DNA from: an uncultured Bacteroidales bacterium
Lineage (GTDB): Bacteria; Bacteroidota; Bacteroidia; Bacteroidales; Bacteroidaceae
Assembly: GCA_902763865.1 (NCBI GenBank)
Contig: CACWTR010000016.1
Span: forward strand, 1 to 64,000
Reading direction: 5' to 3'
DNA: 64,000 bases
The position numbers and the translations under genes were made by a program. Positions 2,017-62,567 of the stretch are shown here, one piece after another. Each line of letters starts with the position of its first letter. Position 1 is the stretch's first letter. Below the pieces are notes generated by a model. It searched no databases, was not told the origin of the DNA, and worked only from the letters and a program-made list of their open reading frames with translations.

Positions 2017-2082
2017 TTTGTTTCTCGCGAGAAACAACTGTCTTCCTCACGAGGTATAGCCGTTTTCCTCACGAGGAAAAAG
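2017..2082. repeat. 66-bp array of three 22-bp palindromic words (TTTCTCGCGAGAAA / CCTCACGAGG type)
   Basis: Three inverted-repeat centres lie exactly 22 bp apart (2027.5, 2049.5, 2071.5). The first core is TTTCTCGCGAGAAA. The second and third share CCTC-AC-GAGG. The left flank (CAACGCGATGCGTCG) and right flank (CGATACGTCGTGTCGTG) are roughly inverted with respect to each other. The geometry is that of the arrays at 14765, 27497 and 61835, but the words are different. Confidence 0.75.
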
Positions 2083-5757: not shown

Positions 5758-8204
5758 AGAAGTCGGAAGAAGTTAGCGGAAGGTGTCTCGCACTCCTGAT
5801 TGGGCTCCTGCTGTCTTCGCTCATGTCAGCATCAGCCCAGTCTCTTCTCTCTCAAGGGAGTGGGGCAGGGGAGGAAGCCTTCTACCGTAAGGCGGAAGGA
5901 CTGCGCGGCGTTCAGCTCAAGGCTGCCCTCCACGACCTCATCCAGCCGGGCCGCGTGCTCGACTATGGCGGTGGCGCGGACAAGACCTGGAGCGGCTTCT
6001 GGCTGACAGACCAAATGGAGGACATGCAGGTGCGTGACCGCTATAGCAACACCGTCCGCCATCTCAATCCCGACATGAGTGCCGTTTCAGGCATGAACAT
6101 CGAGCACATCTGGGCCAACAGCTGGTGGGGGCACATAAAGAACAATGCCTATTGCGACCTCTTCAACCTGTATCCCTCCGATGCCACTGCCAACGGGCGC
6201 AAGAGCAACAACCCCATCGGTGTCGTGGATGGCATCGTGAGCTTCGACAACGGCGTGACCAAGGTGGGCAAGAGCAGCAGCTATCGTGCCGACAGCCTTA
6301 TCACCGCCTGGGAGCCTGCCGACCAATGGAAGGGCGACTTCGCGCGTACATATTTCTATATGGCTACTTGCTACAGCCACATGACTTCCCTCTGGACGAC
6401 GACGGAAGGACTGCTGACCGTCGAGCCCGACAGTCCTCTTCTGATGCGCCCCTGGGTTTACAACCTGATGCTGGAGTGGGCTGAGGCTGACCCGCTCGAC
6501 GAGATAGAGCAGGAGCGTTGCGAGGCCATCTATGGCATTCAGGGCAACCGCAACCCCTTCGTCGATTATCCCGAGCTGTGTCAATACATCTGGGGTGACA
6601 AGGCCGGCGAGCAGTTCTACTGTAGCGATGAACATGGGGCCGAGATATTCGTGCCGGCTGCAAGCGAGACAATCGACTTCGGGCTACAGCCCCTTTCGCG
6701 ACCTTTCAGTGCAAAGGTGCAGGTGCGAGGCAGGGGGCTCGGCGAAGGCGCCAGGCTTTCGGTGGCAGACGAGAGCTTCACCCTTGACCGCAGCAACCTT
6801 TCTGCTGAAGAAATCAAGCAAGGTACAGACATAACCGTTTCTGTCTCTGGGGAGCATGCTGGCCCCTACAGCACGATGCTTTTGCTTGAAGGCAGCGGCT
6901 ATGTACAGCAGACACCGCTTCAGCTGGAGTTCGTCGATGGCATTCCGGCCTATGCTGCCACGGACATTGTCTGCTCCGTCAGCAGTCGCCACTTCAATGC
7001 CAACTGGATGAACTACCAGCCGGGAGCCACCTATACCCTCAGCGTTTATACGAAAGATGCAGACGGACAAGCAAAAACCTTCGGCACCTGGACAACGACT
7101 GACACGACCTATCAGGTCAAGAACGTCCTGGCGAGCACCACATATTATTATAAGGTCAGCATCATCGAAGAGGGTCATGAGCCCATCGGCAGCAACGAGG
7201 TGGCGGTCGAGATGCCGGACGTAGCGCCTGTCTTCTCAGTCAGCTCCCTCGACATTGCCTTCTCCGCCACGCCAGGCAAGCCAAGCTCGCCGACACAAGT
7301 CACCGTCACGGCAATTGCTGTGCCGAAGTACGTAACGGAGGTCAAGACAGCCTCACCCTTCGAGCTCAGTACCGACGGAGAAGTCTGGTCAGAGCAGCTG
7401 ACGCTTACGGGGCAAAGTCCATCGTTCCTTGTCCGTTTCGGCGGAGCCGCGGAGGAAGGCGACTATGCCGGAGAAGCTGTTGTCAGCACAGAAGGGCTGG
7501 ACGACAGAATCATTTCCCTTAGTTGCAGCGTGGATGCCTCGAAATCATTCTTCGAGGACTTCGACACCGCTTCGAAAGGCGCATACGCAGCAGCGGAAGT
7601 CACTTGCAGCGCAGCCACATGGGAGATGAGCAACGCCCTGATAGCTGCCGACGACAATGCTGTGAAGGGGAAGTGCGTCCGCATGAAGGGGTACGTCAAG
7701 TCGGGCCAGACCATTACGACACCTGCCCACATCATGATGACGACGGACAAGGTGAACGGATGCGACAGCCTCTGGTTCTATGCCGGCAGTTATGGCAATG
7801 ACACCGGCGTGAAGATGACGGTCAGCTACAGCATCGACGGCGGACAGACATGGACGAGGGTCGTTTCCTCGCTCGCTGTCGGCGCGATGAAGCGTTACGG
7901 ATACAAGATAAACCGCAACGGCAACATCCGCCTCAAGTTCGAGAGTGAGAACACGGGCAACAAGCGCGTCAACATCGACAACGTCCAGATGAGCGATTGG
8001 GCCGACCCGGATGGCATTGAAAAGCCTCACCCCAGACCCCTCTCCGAAGAGAGCGGAGAAACGGTAAATGGTAACTGCTTCGACCTGAGCGGACGCAAAG
8101 TCGTGAACGGCAAGACTTCAAGTCCTATCATCATCAAGCAAGGCAGGAAGGAAGCAAGCCTCACCCCGACCCTCTCCCGTGGGAGAGGGAGAGATAAATG
8201 GTAA
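5754..8204 (+). CDS. Second secreted endonuclease I family nuclease, multidomain, C-terminus replaced by repeat DNA
   Basis: An 816-residue paralogue of the preceding nuclease. The signal peptide covers about 1-29. The nuclease domain covers about 40-285 with SGMNIEHIWANSWWGH (E117, H118). Beta-rich modules follow, including a fibronectin-III-like stretch near 400-490 and an adhesin-type domain near 590-750. The sorting-tail motif NCFDLSGRKVVNG is present, but two copies of a hairpin repeat interrupt the end: one gives HPRPLSEESGE just before the tail, and another gives the final SLTPTLSRGRGRDKW and stop. The usual lysine-ended tail is therefore lost or altered, which may affect export. The start overlaps the upstream stop (ATGA). 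Confidence 0.87.
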   Translation: MKKSEEVSGRCLALLIGLLLSSLMSASAQSLLSQGSGAGEEAFYRKAEGLRGVQLKAALHDLIQPGRVLDYGGGADKTWSGFWLTDQMEDMQVRDRYSNTVRHLNPDMSAVSGMNIEHIWANSWWGHIKNNAYCDLFNLYPSDATANGRKSNNPIGVVDGIVSFDNGVTKVGKSSSYRADSLITAWEPADQWKGDFARTYFYMATCYSHMTSLWTTTEGLLTVEPDSPLLMRPWVYNLMLEWAEADPLDEIEQERCEAIYGIQGNRNPFVDYPELCQYIWGDKAGEQFYCSDEHGAEIFVPAASETIDFGLQPLSRPFSAKVQVRGRGLGEGARLSVADESFTLDRSNLSAEEIKQGTDITVSVSGEHAGPYSTMLLLEGSGYVQQTPLQLEFVDGIPAYAATDIVCSVSSRHFNANWMNYQPGATYTLSVYTKDADGQAKTFGTWTTTDTTYQVKNVLASTTYYYKVSIIEEGHEPIGSNEVAVEMPDVAPVFSVSSLDIAFSATPGKPSSPTQVTVTAIAVPKYVTEVKTASPFELSTDGEVWSEQLTLTGQSPSFLVRFGGAAEEGDYAGEAVVSTEGLDDRIISLSCSVDASKSFFEDFDTASKGAYAAAEVTCSAATWEMSNALIAADDNAVKGKCVRMKGYVKSGQTITTPAHIMMTTDKVNGCDSLWFYAGSYGNDTGVKMTVSYSIDGGQTWTRVVSSLAVGAMKRYGYKINRNGNIRLKFESENTGNKRVNIDNVQMSDWADPDGIEKPHPRPLSEESGETVNGNCFDLSGRKVVNGKTSSPIIIKQGRKEASLTPTLSRGRGRDKW

Positions 8205-8253
8205 AAAGCCTCACCCCGACCCTCTCCCGTGGGAGAGGGAGAGATAAATGGTA
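8022..8253. repeat. Three copies of a CCTCACCCC...GGGAGAGGG hairpin repeat at a gene end
   Basis: The unit is AAGCCTCACCCC, then CCTCTCC(C), a short turn, GGAGAG, and a tail like GATAAATGGTAAA. Copies lie at about 8022-8066 (diverged), 8156-8203 and 8205-8253. The last two are a near-perfect tandem duplication. The first two are inside the nuclease reading frame and the second supplies its stop codon. Confidence 0.8.
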
Positions 8254-8277
8254 AATGATTAAATGTTAAATGCCCCG

Positions 8278-14668: not shown

Positions 14669-14716
14669 GCCCCCTTCCCCGGGATTCCCAAGGAACCCGC
14701 GGAAGGGGGCTTTTTT
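14669..14716 (+). terminator. Intrinsic terminator after the GLUG surface-protein gene
   Basis: GCCCCCTTCC (14669-14678) pairs with GGAAGGGGGC (14701-14710), and a run of six T follows immediately. The loop can pair internally (CCGGG/CCCGC). Confidence 0.88.
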
Positions 14717-14750
14717 GTTTGACTATTATGCCGGCGATGTGTCCGCGGAA

Positions 14751-14846
14751 TCACGTCGTGTTGATTGCTTCATCGCGAACAAGCAATTGCTTCATCGCGA
14801 TGAAGCAATCACTCCATCGCGATGAAGCAACGAACACGTCACGTCG
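14751..14846. repeat. 66-bp array of three 22-bp palindromic words with inverted flanks
   Basis: The core is 14765-14830, three contiguous 22-bp words each made of two 11-bp halves. Word 1 is TTGCTTCATCG then CGAACAAGCAA. Word 2 is TTGCTTCATCG then CGATGAAGCAA, a perfect palindrome. Word 3 is TCACTCCATCG then CGATGAAGCAA. The left flank TCACGTCGTGTTGA and right flank CGAACACGTCACGTCG recur almost unchanged around the array at 61835. It lies between the terminator and the next promoter. Confidence 0.85.
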
Positions 14847-14870
14847 CTGTGCAATTATTCACGCAAAAGC

Positions 14871-17724: not shown

Positions 17725-18702
17725 TTTCCACTTCGTGGGGTCGATGCTTCCCTCCACGGCATCCTCGATCTGGTCGGGCAGGTTGCAGAAGAAGTCGATG
17801 CCAGTGCGCTGCTCCAACTCGTCGATGGTGATGGCATACCTGGAGCTGACGGCTTCGGCGTTCTCCTTGTGGTCCATCCAGAAGGCGATGGCAAAGTAGC
17901 CGCCACTGATGGACTTCATCTTGGCGCTGTATGCAAGGATAGCCATGTAGAAATGGTTCGGGCAGACGAGCTTCCCGCTGTTCCCTGTCATCCGGTATGT
18001 CCCTTCGGAGATGGTTCCGCCCTTGACGATGTAGAGCGTGTCGCGGAAGGTTGAGGTGTCGTAGGTGTCGCGCAGGAAGTTCTCCAGGTTCCACCAGATG
18101 CCCTGTTCGTTGAAGCCCGGCAGCTGCGGATGGATGTTGCTCAGGTAGAACGTCTGTCCGTTGGCTTCCTTCGAGTTGAGGCGGTCGGCACTGCCAAGGA
18201 GATGGCCTCGCTGGTGTCCGCTGCCGCTGTGGTCCGCGAGTGCTGTTCGCACCTCGGCGGGGAGCACGGGGTCCGGCTGGAAGGGGTCGCCCGTGCCGCC
18301 GTAGCCGTTGAAGGTATGACCGTTGCGCCAGTTGTTGCGATTCCAGGCCCTGTTGTTCGACGAGAAGCCATTGTACCACTTGTAGGCAGTCCAGCTACCG
18401 GCCTTGAGGCCGGTGTTGTAGCCAATGCAGTAGTTCAGCGTGCCGTCCGGCAAGGTGTGGACGATGAAAGCATCCGCGCCTCCTGTCTTGAGGGAGGGGA
18501 TTTCGAGCCCGTGCATCGCGCCGTCCCTGACGGAGACGGGCGTAGTAGGCTCCGTATAGAGGGTAAGCGACAGGGTGGCGTTCCTGTTGGTGTTAGCCTG
18601 AGGGGACGTCGTGGCCGAATCGTCGCCACTGCATGCCAGAAGGCAGAAAACAAAAAGAGGTGCAGACAAACGAATGTATCTGCACCTCATGGGATTTAAC
18701 AT
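17713..18702 (-). CDS. DNA/RNA non-specific endonuclease (NUC1 family), lipoprotein
   Basis: A 329-residue exported nuclease. The N-terminus (LFVFCLLACSG) is a lipoprotein signal with the lipobox cysteine near residue 24. MRC at codon 5 is an alternative start. The NUC1 domain fills the second half: HQRGHLLGSAD contains the (D/Q)RGH motif whose histidine activates water, and NIHPQLPGFNEQGIWWNLE carries the metal-binding Asn and conserved N..W..LE. Such enzymes cut single- and double-stranded nucleic acids with Mg2+. It is the third secreted nuclease in 15 kb. The last residues and stop come from a heptamer repeat. Confidence 0.9.
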   Translation of the reverse strand: MLNPMRCRYIRLSAPLFVFCLLACSGDDSATTSPQANTNRNATLSLTLYTEPTTPVSVRDGAMHGLEIPSLKTGGADAFIVHTLPDGTLNYCIGYNTGLKAGSWTAYKWYNGFSSNNRAWNRNNWRNGHTFNGYGGTGDPFQPDPVLPAEVRTALADHSGSGHQRGHLLGSADRLNSKEANGQTFYLSNIHPQLPGFNEQGIWWNLENFLRDTYDTSTFRDTLYIVKGGTISEGTYRMTGNSGKLVCPNHFYMAILAYSAKMKSISGGYFAIAFWMDHKENAEAVSSRYAITIDELEQRTGIDFFCNLPDQIEDAVEGSIDPTKWKLRD

Positions 18703-27474: not shown

Positions 27475-27496
27475 CCGGGACGACGCGTCGGGAGCG

Positions 27497-27562
27497 TTGC
27501 ACATACATGTACGTGCAATTGCATCTACATGTATGTGCAATTGCTCCATCGCGATGAAGCAA
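27497..27562. repeat. 66-bp array of three 22-bp palindromic words of mixed type
   Basis: Word 1 is TTGCACATACA then TGTACGTGCAA. Word 2 is TTGCATCTACA then TGTATGTGCAA. Word 3 is TTGCTCCATCG then CGATGAAGCAA. They are contiguous with no spacer. The outer flanks are ACGCGTCGGGAGCG on the left and ACAGGTCATCGTGTCGTG on the right. Word 3 belongs to the class at 14765. Words 1 and 2 match the middle word at 61857. Confidence 0.85.
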
Positions 27563-46851: not shown

Positions 46852-46903
46852 AATGTAATCCTTCGGGGCGCGAAATAAAACCTCGAAGAACGCGTTGAAA
46901 AGT

Positions 46904-46987
46904 TATTTTCAAGCTTTGAAAATCAATTTTCACGTCATGAAAATATATTTTCACGGTTTGAAAATTAATTTTCACGTCATGAAAATA
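46904..46987. repeat. 84-bp array of four 21-bp palindromic words (ATTTTCA-N5-TGAAAAT)
   Basis: Four inverted-repeat centres at 46914, 46935, 46956 and 46977, exactly 21 bp apart. Words 2 and 4 share ATTTTCACGTCATGAAAAT. Word 3 has ATTTTCACGGTTTGAAAAT. Word 1 is TTTTCAAGCTTTGAAAA. Flanks GAACGCGTTGAAAAG and GTTTTCCAACGTGTTTC are inverted copies of each other. It lies between two convergent genes, where a bidirectional terminator might be expected. Confidence 0.8.
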
Positions 46988-47080
46988 GTTTTCCAACGTG
47001 TTTCATAGGCTTTTGTCTGCTGTTTAGGCAACTTTTGTCTACCGTTTCATGGGTATGAATGGCCTTTGCCGGATGGCGTC

Positions 47081-51010: not shown

Positions 51011-51264
51011 ATAATTATCCAGGGTCGTACCACCAGCACCCTGAAAGGGCAGTAAGCTGTCAGCCCAGGGCATCGCCCTGGGGCAAAGCGTATATCATCC
51101 TTCGCCCTGAAGGGGCAAAAGAATAATGCAGGAAAGTCTTTTGCCCTTTCAAGGCGTGTCTTATGTCACATAGACCACCTAGGGCGATGCCCTGGGCTAT
51201 GGGCTTACTGCCCTTTCAGGGCTGTTGCGAAACTAATGAATGGTGGTACGCCCCAGGATAATCA
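51011..51264. mobile_element. MITE-like long inverted-repeat element
   Basis: The ends are inverted copies: TTATCCAGGGTCGTACCACC on the left, and the reverse complement of the right end reads TTATCCTGGGGCGTACCACC. Further in, CCCTGAAAGGGCAGTAAGC and CCCAGGGCATCGCCCT recur inverted. The middle is a third hairpin (CGCCCTGAAGGGGCAAAAGA against TCTTTTGCCCTTTCAAGGCG). No coding frame is evident. The structure is of a non-autonomous element that folds on itself. I see no target duplication with confidence. Confidence 0.65.
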
Positions 51265-51270
51265 AATTCT

Positions 51271-51314
51271 ATTTTGCCTCACGAGGTGTAAGCGTTTGCC
51301 TCACGAGGCAAATC
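51271..51314. repeat. Two-word palindromic array (CCTCACGAGG type), 22-bp period
   Basis: Inverted-repeat centres at 51281.5 and 51303.5, each CCTC-AC-GAGG, as in the array at 2017. The right flank ACACTCATCGTGTTG matches the flanks of other arrays. A third word may have been lost where the adjoining MITE-like element ends 7 bp away. Confidence 0.7.
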
Positions 51315-61820: not shown

Positions 61821-61918
61821 TCACGTCGTTTTGATTGCTTCATCGCGATGGAGTGATTGCACATACATGTACATGCAATTGCTTTATCGCGATGAAGCAA
61901 CGAACACATCGCGTTGTG
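61821..61918. repeat. 66-bp array of three 22-bp palindromic words with inverted flanks
   Basis: The core is 61835-61900: TTGCTTCATCG then CGATGGAGTGA; TTGCACATACA then TGTACATGCAA; TTGCTTTATCG then CGATGAAGCAA. The left flank TCACGTCGTTTTGA and right flank CGAACACATCGCGTTG are almost the same as at 14751. The last flank bases abut the stop codon of the nitroreductase gene. Confidence 0.85.
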
Positions 61919-61919
61919 T

Positions 61920-62567
61920 TCAGTCTTCCTTCGGGTAGCCCACGGGGTTGTTCATGACGGGGAACTGGTCTGCGGTCAGCTTCAGCAGGGCGCTGATACC
62001 TTTGCTGTCCATCGTGGCGCGCGGAACGGTGCAGAGTCCGACTGACTGGCAGTAGAGGTTGACGTTCTCGCTCACGTTGCCAGCATCCACGCATCCCATC
62101 ATCCTGGCACGCTCGTCCTTGCCGCCCATCTTCTCCAGGTCCAAGACCATGACGAGCGAGACGGGGGCCTCGAGGACGAAGTCCTGCGAGAATTCCTTGC
62201 TGCCTGCCACGAGGCTGCGCTGGTCGCCCTTTGCCATCTCCTTCAGGATGTTCTCGACGGGAAGATATTCGTAAACACCCTTCTTCGTGAATACAAAGAG
62301 GCGTATTTCCTTGCGGTTCCGTGCTGTAGGCGAGGTGCGGAAATCGTTGTTGCGGCTTACGCCACAGGCTGCCCAGCACAGGTTGCTCAGCTCCTGCAAG
62401 GAGAGCTCGCGCGAGCTGTAGGTGCGCACGGAATGGCGTGTCCGCAGGGTCTCGACCATGCTGAGTGACTTCTGGTTCATGTCGGCAGCCGGCAGCTTGA
62501 TGTCCTGCGCCGTGGAGGTGCAGCTGGCGAACAGAATCGCTGCTGCGATGGAGAATAACTTCTTCAT
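61920..62567 (-). CDS. SagB/ThcOx-like nitroreductase family lipoprotein
   Basis: A 215-residue flavin-dependent oxidoreductase. The ATG at 62567 gives MKKLFSIAAAILFASCTSTA, a lipoprotein signal; a longer frame would pass through the promoter. The fold signatures are TRHSVRTYSSRELSLQELSN, LCWAACGVSRN, TSPTARNRKEIRLFVFTKKG and VDAGNVSENVNLYCQSVGLC. This group of exported nitroreductase-like proteins is common in Bacteroidales; the substrate is unknown. Confidence 0.85.
   Translation of the reverse strand: MKKLFSIAAAILFASCTSTAQDIKLPAADMNQKSLSMVETLRTRHSVRTYSSRELSLQELSNLCWAACGVSRNNDFRTSPTARNRKEIRLFVFTKKGVYEYLPVENILKEMAKGDQRSLVAGSKEFSQDFVLEAPVSLVMVLDLEKMGGKDERARMMGCVDAGNVSENVNLYCQSVGLCTVPRATMDSKGISALLKLTADQFPVMNNPVGYPKED

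Follow-up and report, generated by a model that had tools for sequence, protein, structure and literature searches.

Short palindromic DNA words, set side by side at a pitch of 21 or 22 bp and grouped in threes or fours, form intergenic arrays that are dispersed through the genome of an uncultured member of the Bacteroidaceae. These arrays are best understood as non-autonomous interspersed palindromic repeats of a MITE- or REP-like kind, the units of which would move by means of an enzyme encoded outside the unit and the cores of which would be kept uniform by recombination; our confidence in this reading is about even. The array group has so far been found in one genus-level clade of uncultured Bacteroidaceae and in one genome of a second genus. 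An initial annotation of the window, the whole 64-kb stretch of DNA analysed here (part of contig 16), had considered its phased palindrome arrays too regular for chance, and this observation is confirmed. The genome comprises 2.91 Mb in 75 contigs and is 84% complete. The unselected sample referred to below covers 783 kb, namely the window and 719 kb of further contig stretches.

The coordinates of the features are collected in Table 1. The core at 14765 does consist of 66 bp in three spacer-free 22-bp words, as annotated, its palindromes being near-perfect and not all perfect, with 9/11, 11/11 and 8/11 complementary half-pairs word by word. The arrays at 27497 (10/11, 9/11 and 10/11 pairs) and 61835 (8/11, 9/11 and 10/11 pairs) were correctly assigned to the same design and belong with it to family A, the latter adding a fourth word in its right flank. 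The array at 2017 was grouped with these three. It has three 22-bp words (10/11, 6/11 and 9/11 pairs), but they belong to another word family. At 46904, a contiguous four-word array with a pitch of 21 bp had been described; word number and pitch are correct, but the words are separated by linkers, and this array represents family B. The proposed two-word array at 51271 shares CCTCACGAGG with that at 2017, but its palindromy (6/11 and 8/11 pairs, mean 0.64) falls below the 99% point of 0.68 for two words in shuffled 120-bp segments, and as an array it is only suggestive. The recurring outer flanks, ACGTCGTGTTG-like and its inverse, are real, though degenerate. The 66-bp core of the 14765 array is found in identical form at eight further loci among the 31 A arrays examined, and the core of the 46905 array at two further loci among 28 B arrays. 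The G+C-rich stem upstream of the 14765 array is not listed by a terminator scan that covers loops of 3-8 only. The window also holds many tandem repeats of 7-bp units with periods of 7, 14 and 21 (at 8245, 15542, 15621, 17685, 20116, 22454, 28231 and 63055), and at 8156-8255 a 50-bp unit with the palindrome CCCTCTCCCGTGGGAGAGGG is present in two exact copies.

Table 1. Arrays, flanking words and associated features (positions refer to the window unless a locus is named).
Feature	Position	Strand	Description
Family A core	14765..14830	.	66 bp; three contiguous 22-bp near-palindromic words
Left outer word, 14765 array	14743..14764	.	Degenerate; terminal CACGTCGTGTTGA
Right outer word, 14765 array	14831..14852	.	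CGAACACGTCACGTCGCTGTGC; degenerate counterpart of the left outer word
G+C-rich inverted repeat followed by TTTTTT	14669..14716	+	Intrinsic-terminator-like in our reading; between the upstream gene and the 14765 array
Family A core	27497..27562	.	Two ACATGT-class words and one CGCG-class word
Left outer word, 27497 array	27475..27496	.	CCGGGACGACGCGTCGGGAGCG; 6/11 pairs
Family A core	61835..61900	.	Word order CGCG, ACATGT, CGCG
Right outer word, 61835 array	61901..61922	.	CGAACACATCGCGTTGTGTTCA; fourth 22-bp near-palindrome, 9/11 pairs
Family B core	46905..46986	.	Four words of 19 bp (ATTTTCA-N5-TGAAAAT), separated by 2-bp linkers; pitch 21
Left flank of 46905 B core	46877..46904	.	AAAACCTC..AACGCG..AAAAGTT
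Right flank of 46905 B core	46987..47046	.	22-bp words of the CGTGTT....GGCTTTT kind, degenerate and weakening with distance from the core
Three-word array of another (third) word kind	2017..2082	.	22-bp words, TTTGTTTCTCGCGAGAAACAAC etc.; outer word 1995-2016
Two weak 22-bp words	51271..51314	.	CCTCACGAGG in common with 2017; palindromy alone not significant
RAYT-size Y1_Tnp gene	L048 1402-1857 (G000:C4; Y1_Tnp match 17736-18074)		

A genome-wide scan for phased palindromes had been named beforehand as the refuting test, and an excess over shuffled sequence is seen in the window, in 441 kb and in 783 kb, so that the claim of a regularity beyond chance stands. A strict scan of the window returns nine rows nested in four places (14765, 27497, 46904 and 61835), compared with a mean of 0.18 and a maximum of one in 50 shuffles. 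Over 441 kb, the distances between palindrome centres peak at 10, 21, 31, 42 and 52 bp and less strongly at 22 and 44 bp; 49 pairs lie 21 bp and 13 pairs 22 bp apart, the shuffle mean (n = 5) being below one in every bin. A word-blind detector finds 47 clusters in the 783 kb, against 1, 4 and 2 in three shuffles, and a loose pattern labels 22 of these as A, 21 as B and four as other. Genome-wide, TTGCTTCATCGCGATGAAGCAA has 135 matches with up to three mismatches (reversed control 0), and the two-word B pattern has 206 with up to two (control 0). Short, non-coding, dispersed and present in many copies, the arrays display the general traits of MITEs: strict patterns recover 21 A arrays (17 three-word and four four-word) and 19 B arrays, every one with four words at a 21-bp pitch, in the 783 kb. 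The strict A pattern drops one further A array with an altered word end, and two of the loosely labelled B clusters consist of other words, besides two degenerate B remnants. By extrapolation, the genome would contain some 70-80 arrays per family, in line with the 206 two-word B matches.

According to a simple gene caller of our own, the 40 strict arrays are intergenic with the following exceptions: one array extends into murB by 39 bp, a second touches a gene with a single base pair, and four B arrays overlap ORF predictions that are short and taken as spurious. The gaps that hold family A (n = 21) are co-directional in 11 cases, divergent in nine and convergent in one, none of these being significantly off expectation (divergent, p 0.08). 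Family B (n = 19) occupies nine convergent gaps, where 2.5 are expected by length (p = 3e-4), in addition to five co-directional and five divergent ones. This bias of family B towards convergent gaps suggests a function or selection beyond simple insertion.

The uniformity of the arrays sits at the level of the half-word and not of the whole core, since most cores are distinct as wholes in the unselected sample, with 20 distinct cores in 21 A arrays (one identical pair) and 17 in 19 B arrays (two pairs). There are 17 distinct half-words among 194 in family A and four among 224 in family B, counts subject to the caveat that the constant part of every word is set by the very pattern used to pick the arrays. 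Identical whole cores are less common in the unselected sample than in an enlarged set, to which 20 loci were added for their resemblance to the window arrays (31 A arrays, ten of them so fetched, and 28 B arrays, nine so fetched). In this set, nine A arrays have one identical 66-bp core and two have another, and B cores are common to three, two and two arrays; the flanks of the nine A arrays and of the three B arrays are dissimilar. Little or no link exists between core and flank similarity. The identity of A flanks is 0.47-0.54 over the first 22 bp in every core-identity class and 0.26-0.30 over the next 22 bp, and the correlation between core and flank identity is 0.10 in family A (38/200 permutations at least as high) and 0.11 in family B (12/200). 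A slight positive trend in B has a Spearman p of 0.02 that is not corrected for shared arrays. The occurrence of like cores in dissimilar flanks suggests additional copying or rewriting of cores separately from their surroundings; recombination confined to the homologous core would suffice to explain the shared cores, and uniformity at the half-word level could also be produced by selection by a DNA-binding protein. Outside the cores, the T-tract of the B flank declines from 2.1 bits at +4-6 through 1.2-1.5 at +26-27 and 1.0-1.4 at +48-49 to 0.2-0.4 at +70-71. In family A, the flank signal is located at +3-13, +31-36 and +53, a weak 22-bp rhythm that decays outward.

Two sites were compared with their orthologues in related genomes. 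At C4:9024-9111, an A array lies between murB and a gene of the MBL fold, and the murB frame (L003 385-1539, G000:C4) reads into the array and thereby gains about a dozen array-encoded residues. The proteins closest to the MBL-fold neighbour, at up to 89% identity, belong to MAGs that carry the labels Bacteroidaceae, Prevotellaceae or Bacteroidales; ruminants are the source of many of these, and the host is thus probably an uncultured gut bacterium of Bacteroidaceae type. Among 139 genomes of the genus searched for this site, 116 matched, and 30 loci were fetched, comprising that of the genome itself and those of 29 relatives with both flanks. As read from the printed gaps, the array is absent in 29/29 relatives compared. 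In 13 of them no more than 11 bp separate the aligned flanks, and some of these, such as G019 and G088, have the two genes overlapping in ATGA. At C7:15840-15921, a B array is situated between convergent genes; it is absent in all 23 comparable relatives (25 searched), and in eight of these no more than 5 bp separate the flanks. In G105, 595 bp lie between the flanks at this site; this gap was read in part, and the array detector found no array there. Since the arrays are absent in all relatives compared and the flanking genes abut or overlap in many, both arrived by insertion, and insertion relative to empty sites is a further trait of MITEs. Flank DNA is also missing in relatives at both sites. 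A synteny comparison queried with 17 arrays of relatives and 44 clusters of the genome itself yielded five comparable rows (four distinct arrays, two of A/B type), and no array was present at the other genome's site in any of these rows. Other relatives carry different hairpin-type insertions at the C7 site, and the convergent-gene junction resembles a hotspot of insertion. The C7-site orthologues L147, L149 and L150 (G074, G052 and G110) contain hairpins built from heptamer-like units (TTAGAGG / CCTCTAA).

The same architecture recurs, with different words, in relatives whose DNA is about 80% identical. The 3 x 22 core occurs in seven of them (G071, G019, G110, G080, G131, G005 and G034), where the words end in TTGC/GCAA or, in part of G034, in TTGA/TCAA. 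B arrays with a pitch of 21 and mostly four words are present in G075, G105, G083, G120 and G074. Among the matches listed, at least 17 of 25 relatives have A-word matches and at least 8 of 25 have B-array matches. The WCATGW-class two-word A pattern, which misses other word classes, is found in 9/399 genomes of the family (own genome included) and in 2/30 genera, with one genome outside the genus; the exact A word has no match in named genomes. Six copies in G075 have 182-334 bp in common (88.0-94.5% identity) and no longer homology around them, which indicates that whole units do spread. The ends of these copies are fuzzy, and the units contain no called gene apart from one 111-bp ORF overlapping one copy. 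No target-site duplication is evident by eye in the G075 copies, and the other relatives are too diverged for any to be read. Terminal inverted repeats with sharp ends were not found, the inward-facing flank words fading outward. Near a contig end of G071 (L113 about 5-250, G071:C5), a palindrome of about 200 bp, by eye nearly perfect, is centred on an A-type array; it may be real or an assembly artefact.

Results on selection for hairpins conflict, and no single rule fits all pairing data. In the genome itself, words 1 to 3 of family A are more palindromic at variable columns than shuffles (0/500 reach the observed value for each word), and 152/168 variable cells of word 2 are complementary, compared with 109.5 in shuffles. 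In five relatives, the two halves of word 2 mostly differ, the complementary variable cells amounting to 0/14, 2/28, 0/8, 5/30 and 10/36. Within-word covariation is weak in family B, where 64, 31, 310 and 9 of 500 shuffles reach the observed value for words 1 to 4. Neighbouring A words and the whole A array pair more than shuffles (1, 0 and 1 of 500 reach the observed value; whole array 349/483 versus 324.4), and A words 1 and 3 pair less (197/315 versus 215.5). For family B, the word pairs 1-2 and 3-4 lie above shuffles (21/500 and 13/500 reach), the pairs 1-3, 2-4, 1-4 and 2-3 lie below, and so does pairing over the whole array (68/247 versus 103.7). In the genome itself, the two flanks that enclose an array complement each other less than do flanks taken from different arrays, both in A (9.95 versus 12.18; 1993/2000 permutations at least as high) and in B (11.95 versus 13.57; 1920/2000). 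Words 1 and 3 match exactly as reverse complements in 14/18 arrays of G071. Five array stretches folded as DNA gave z values of -4.0 to -6.6 with minimum-energy pairs mostly between words and between flanks, and the single-stranded unit is predicted to form one long imperfect hairpin.

Three explanations had been offered initially, namely a repeat spread by a mobilising enzyme, a phased binding platform and tandem RNA hairpins at transcript ends. The mobile repeat provides the best fit, given the array-free orthologous sites, the species-variable copy number and the cores common to unrelated loci. Given the great constancy of the pitch and the continuation of the rhythm into the flanks, the main rival is a phased double-stranded platform in which each word is bound by a dimeric protein, or by paralogues with different half-site preference. 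The dimers would stack every two helical turns and spread into the weaker flank words, making the arrays nucleoid-organising or regulatory sites. This is a real possibility, though we consider it well short of probable. It is in keeping with the 22-bp pitch of family A in all eight species (own and seven relatives) despite different words, with the weak 22-bp periodic signal decaying outward through A and B flanks, with the palindromy of the own-genome A words and with the small vocabulary of half-words. Absence of the arrays at the orthologous sites of the relatives compared would be unusual for regulatory sites, however, and no array position was common with relatives in any comparison; the words diverge strongly between close species, and the halves of word 2 are mostly non-complementary at variable positions in five relatives. 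Transcribed RNA hairpins serving as terminators, stabilisers or processing sites are unlikely as a general explanation and most plausible for family B, given its enrichment between convergent genes. The predicted folds are strong, both terminator-like matches of the region coincide with the 14765 array on the minus strand (2 versus 0.6 in shuffles), and in one case an A array separates murB from the co-directional gene that follows it. Family A nevertheless fits poorly, with 9/21 arrays between divergent and one between convergent genes and with an asymmetric element whose orientation does not follow gene direction (7/11 versus 4/11 in co-directional gaps). Furthermore, the 14765 array is located beyond the terminator-like stem of the upstream gene, folding favours one long hairpin over three word hairpins, and an Rfam scan of the window gave no match at gathering score.

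REP/BIME elements mobilised by a RAYT transposase, a family whose recognition had been named initially as a refuting outcome, are highly improbable on the RAYT and tag features. REP/BIME sequences are GTAG- and CGTC-tagged palindromic repeats that are short, intergenic, high in copy number, paired or clustered and partly without a known transposase (PMC3733652). The arrays resemble them in being short, intergenic, palindromic, lineage-specific and numerous, and the genome encodes a 151-aa Y1_Tnp protein of RAYT size. They differ in their contiguous words at a 21-22 bp pitch and in lacking a consistent tag: GTAG occurs in 3/42 A and 0/38 B flanks at no fixed position and is therefore not a tag, and CGTC is not clearly in excess (A 14/42 versus 18.6 in shuffles, B 8/38 versus 5.3). 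The RAYT-like gene is surrounded by G+C-rich palindromes of its own (GCCCTGAAAGGGC / CCCAGGGC..GCCCTGGG, by inspection) rather than by A or B words, and no A/B array lies near either of the two own-genome Y1_Tnp loci. A palindrome at 51103-51156 of the window is similar to those around this gene. Beside the gene, at L048 about 1050-1215, a tandemly repeated, GGCCATAAGCTCACGAGTCATC-like unit of about 22 bp partly resembles a core-less minisatellite at C5:55964. This core-less 22-bp repeat of the same genome has TTGCACACTTTTCCG ends and palindromic words that resemble the A outer flanks; it differs from family A in having no three-word core and an end motif of its own, which is found at 13 places genome-wide with up to two mismatches (control 0). 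Its loci include C7:7640-7960, C5:55900-56080, C5:46540-46720 and C6:47860-48000 of G000 (L365-L377), and some copies contain TTGGCCAACGACTCACGACG as an internal word of 22 bp, with a run of seven at C7. Such likeness leads to the suggestion that cores insert into an older 22-bp palindromic minisatellite word (CGACGTGTTGG/CCAACACGTCG, split between the two), the flanks being split older arrays, which we judge to have a small chance of being correct. Joined A flanks do resemble words of the core-less repeat: four matches, spread over three loci, score no lower than the real median, compared with 0 in three shuffles. At C7:7700-7880, a run of seven such words can be read, and identical cores stand in dissimilar flanks. 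Yet a looser word search with up to four mismatches gave no excess (42 in the sample versus 46, 36 and 41 in shuffles), no such flank resemblance is seen for family B, relatives lack the flank DNA too at both insertion sites, and the end motif of the core-less repeat is near 0/21 A and 1/19 B arrays.

In the favoured account of a mobile repeat, the unit would be about 110-190 bp long, reaching about 330 bp in one relative, and would have three to four palindromic words as its central core and, on both sides, weaker words that keep a similar pitch of 21-22 bp. Units would reach new sites through an enzyme that they do not encode. After insertion, the flanks would drift and the cores stay uniform within the species, presumably through recombination or template switching between cores; such homogenisation would stop where homology stops and could swap half-words inside palindromes. 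A more far-reaching proposal is a half-word repeat system with near-fixed word number and pitch, in which cores are actively rewritten from species-specific half-words (four in family B), independently of the flanks, by a putative enzyme or recombination route acting at palindrome centres; this we regard as rather doubtful. The mobilising enzyme was not found among 19 PF13366 loci of eight genomes and the two own-genome Y1_Tnp loci, none of which is bounded by A/B arrays, and three patterns gave no match on viral contigs, nor did one A query on plasmids. A GxxExxY (PF13366) partner had been raised by such a gene at the C7 B site of one relative and found no support in these 19 loci; at two of them an array lies on one side, about 1 kb or more away. 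The PF13366 loci are themselves possibly small mobile cassettes with MITE derivatives: self-comparison reveals an inverted repeat on either side of the GxxExxY gene in 11/19, and in the two that were read (L173 1399-1958, G105; L174 1441-1877, G000:C10) the inverted repeats consist of tandem words, AAATAAAGG and ACGGATTTG. The murB gap of G110 contains a gene-free hairpin of words similar to those flanking PF13366 genes.

CRISPR arrays are also built from regular short units with dyad symmetry, but the present arrays have contiguous words with no unique spacers between them. In the titles and abstract openings of the open literature, no published repeat of the same design was recognised, which agrees with the initial statement that no named repeat is of this design; a repeat of the same general kind has nevertheless been described. 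The BrickBuilt MITE of Porphyromonas gingivalis, a member of the Bacteroidales, is intergenic, encloses a minisatellite of spacer-free tandem units of 23 nt and is present in 19 copies (PMC4596501). Its units are direct repeats in variable number, with 18 full repeats in one copy, and its 12-nt ends are close to those of IS5-family elements. BrickBuilt is the closest known kind. The two have in common the bacterial order, a consistently intergenic location, the unit size, the lack of spacers and predicted long stem-loops, as well as leader and tail flanks, restriction to particular species and the lack of a transposase inside the element (PMC4596501). In contrast to BrickBuilt, the arrays have palindromic words, three to four per core, with a small half-word vocabulary; they would number roughly 70-80 per family by extrapolation, and IS5-like ends were not found in them.

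The arrays add a class of repeats with an unusual grammar of three to four words, a pitch of 21-22 bp and a half-word vocabulary. With cores that are alike and flanks that are not, they also offer a naturally occurring example of concerted evolution among bacterial sequences of very short length. The array-free sites and the sets of shared cores make both the enzyme and the protein-coat reading directly testable. If a dedicated enzyme copies or rewrites the cores, gut Bacteroidaceae would possess a DNA-mobilising or DNA-editing activity that is new; were the arrays coated by a protein, they would form a chromosome-scale binding system.
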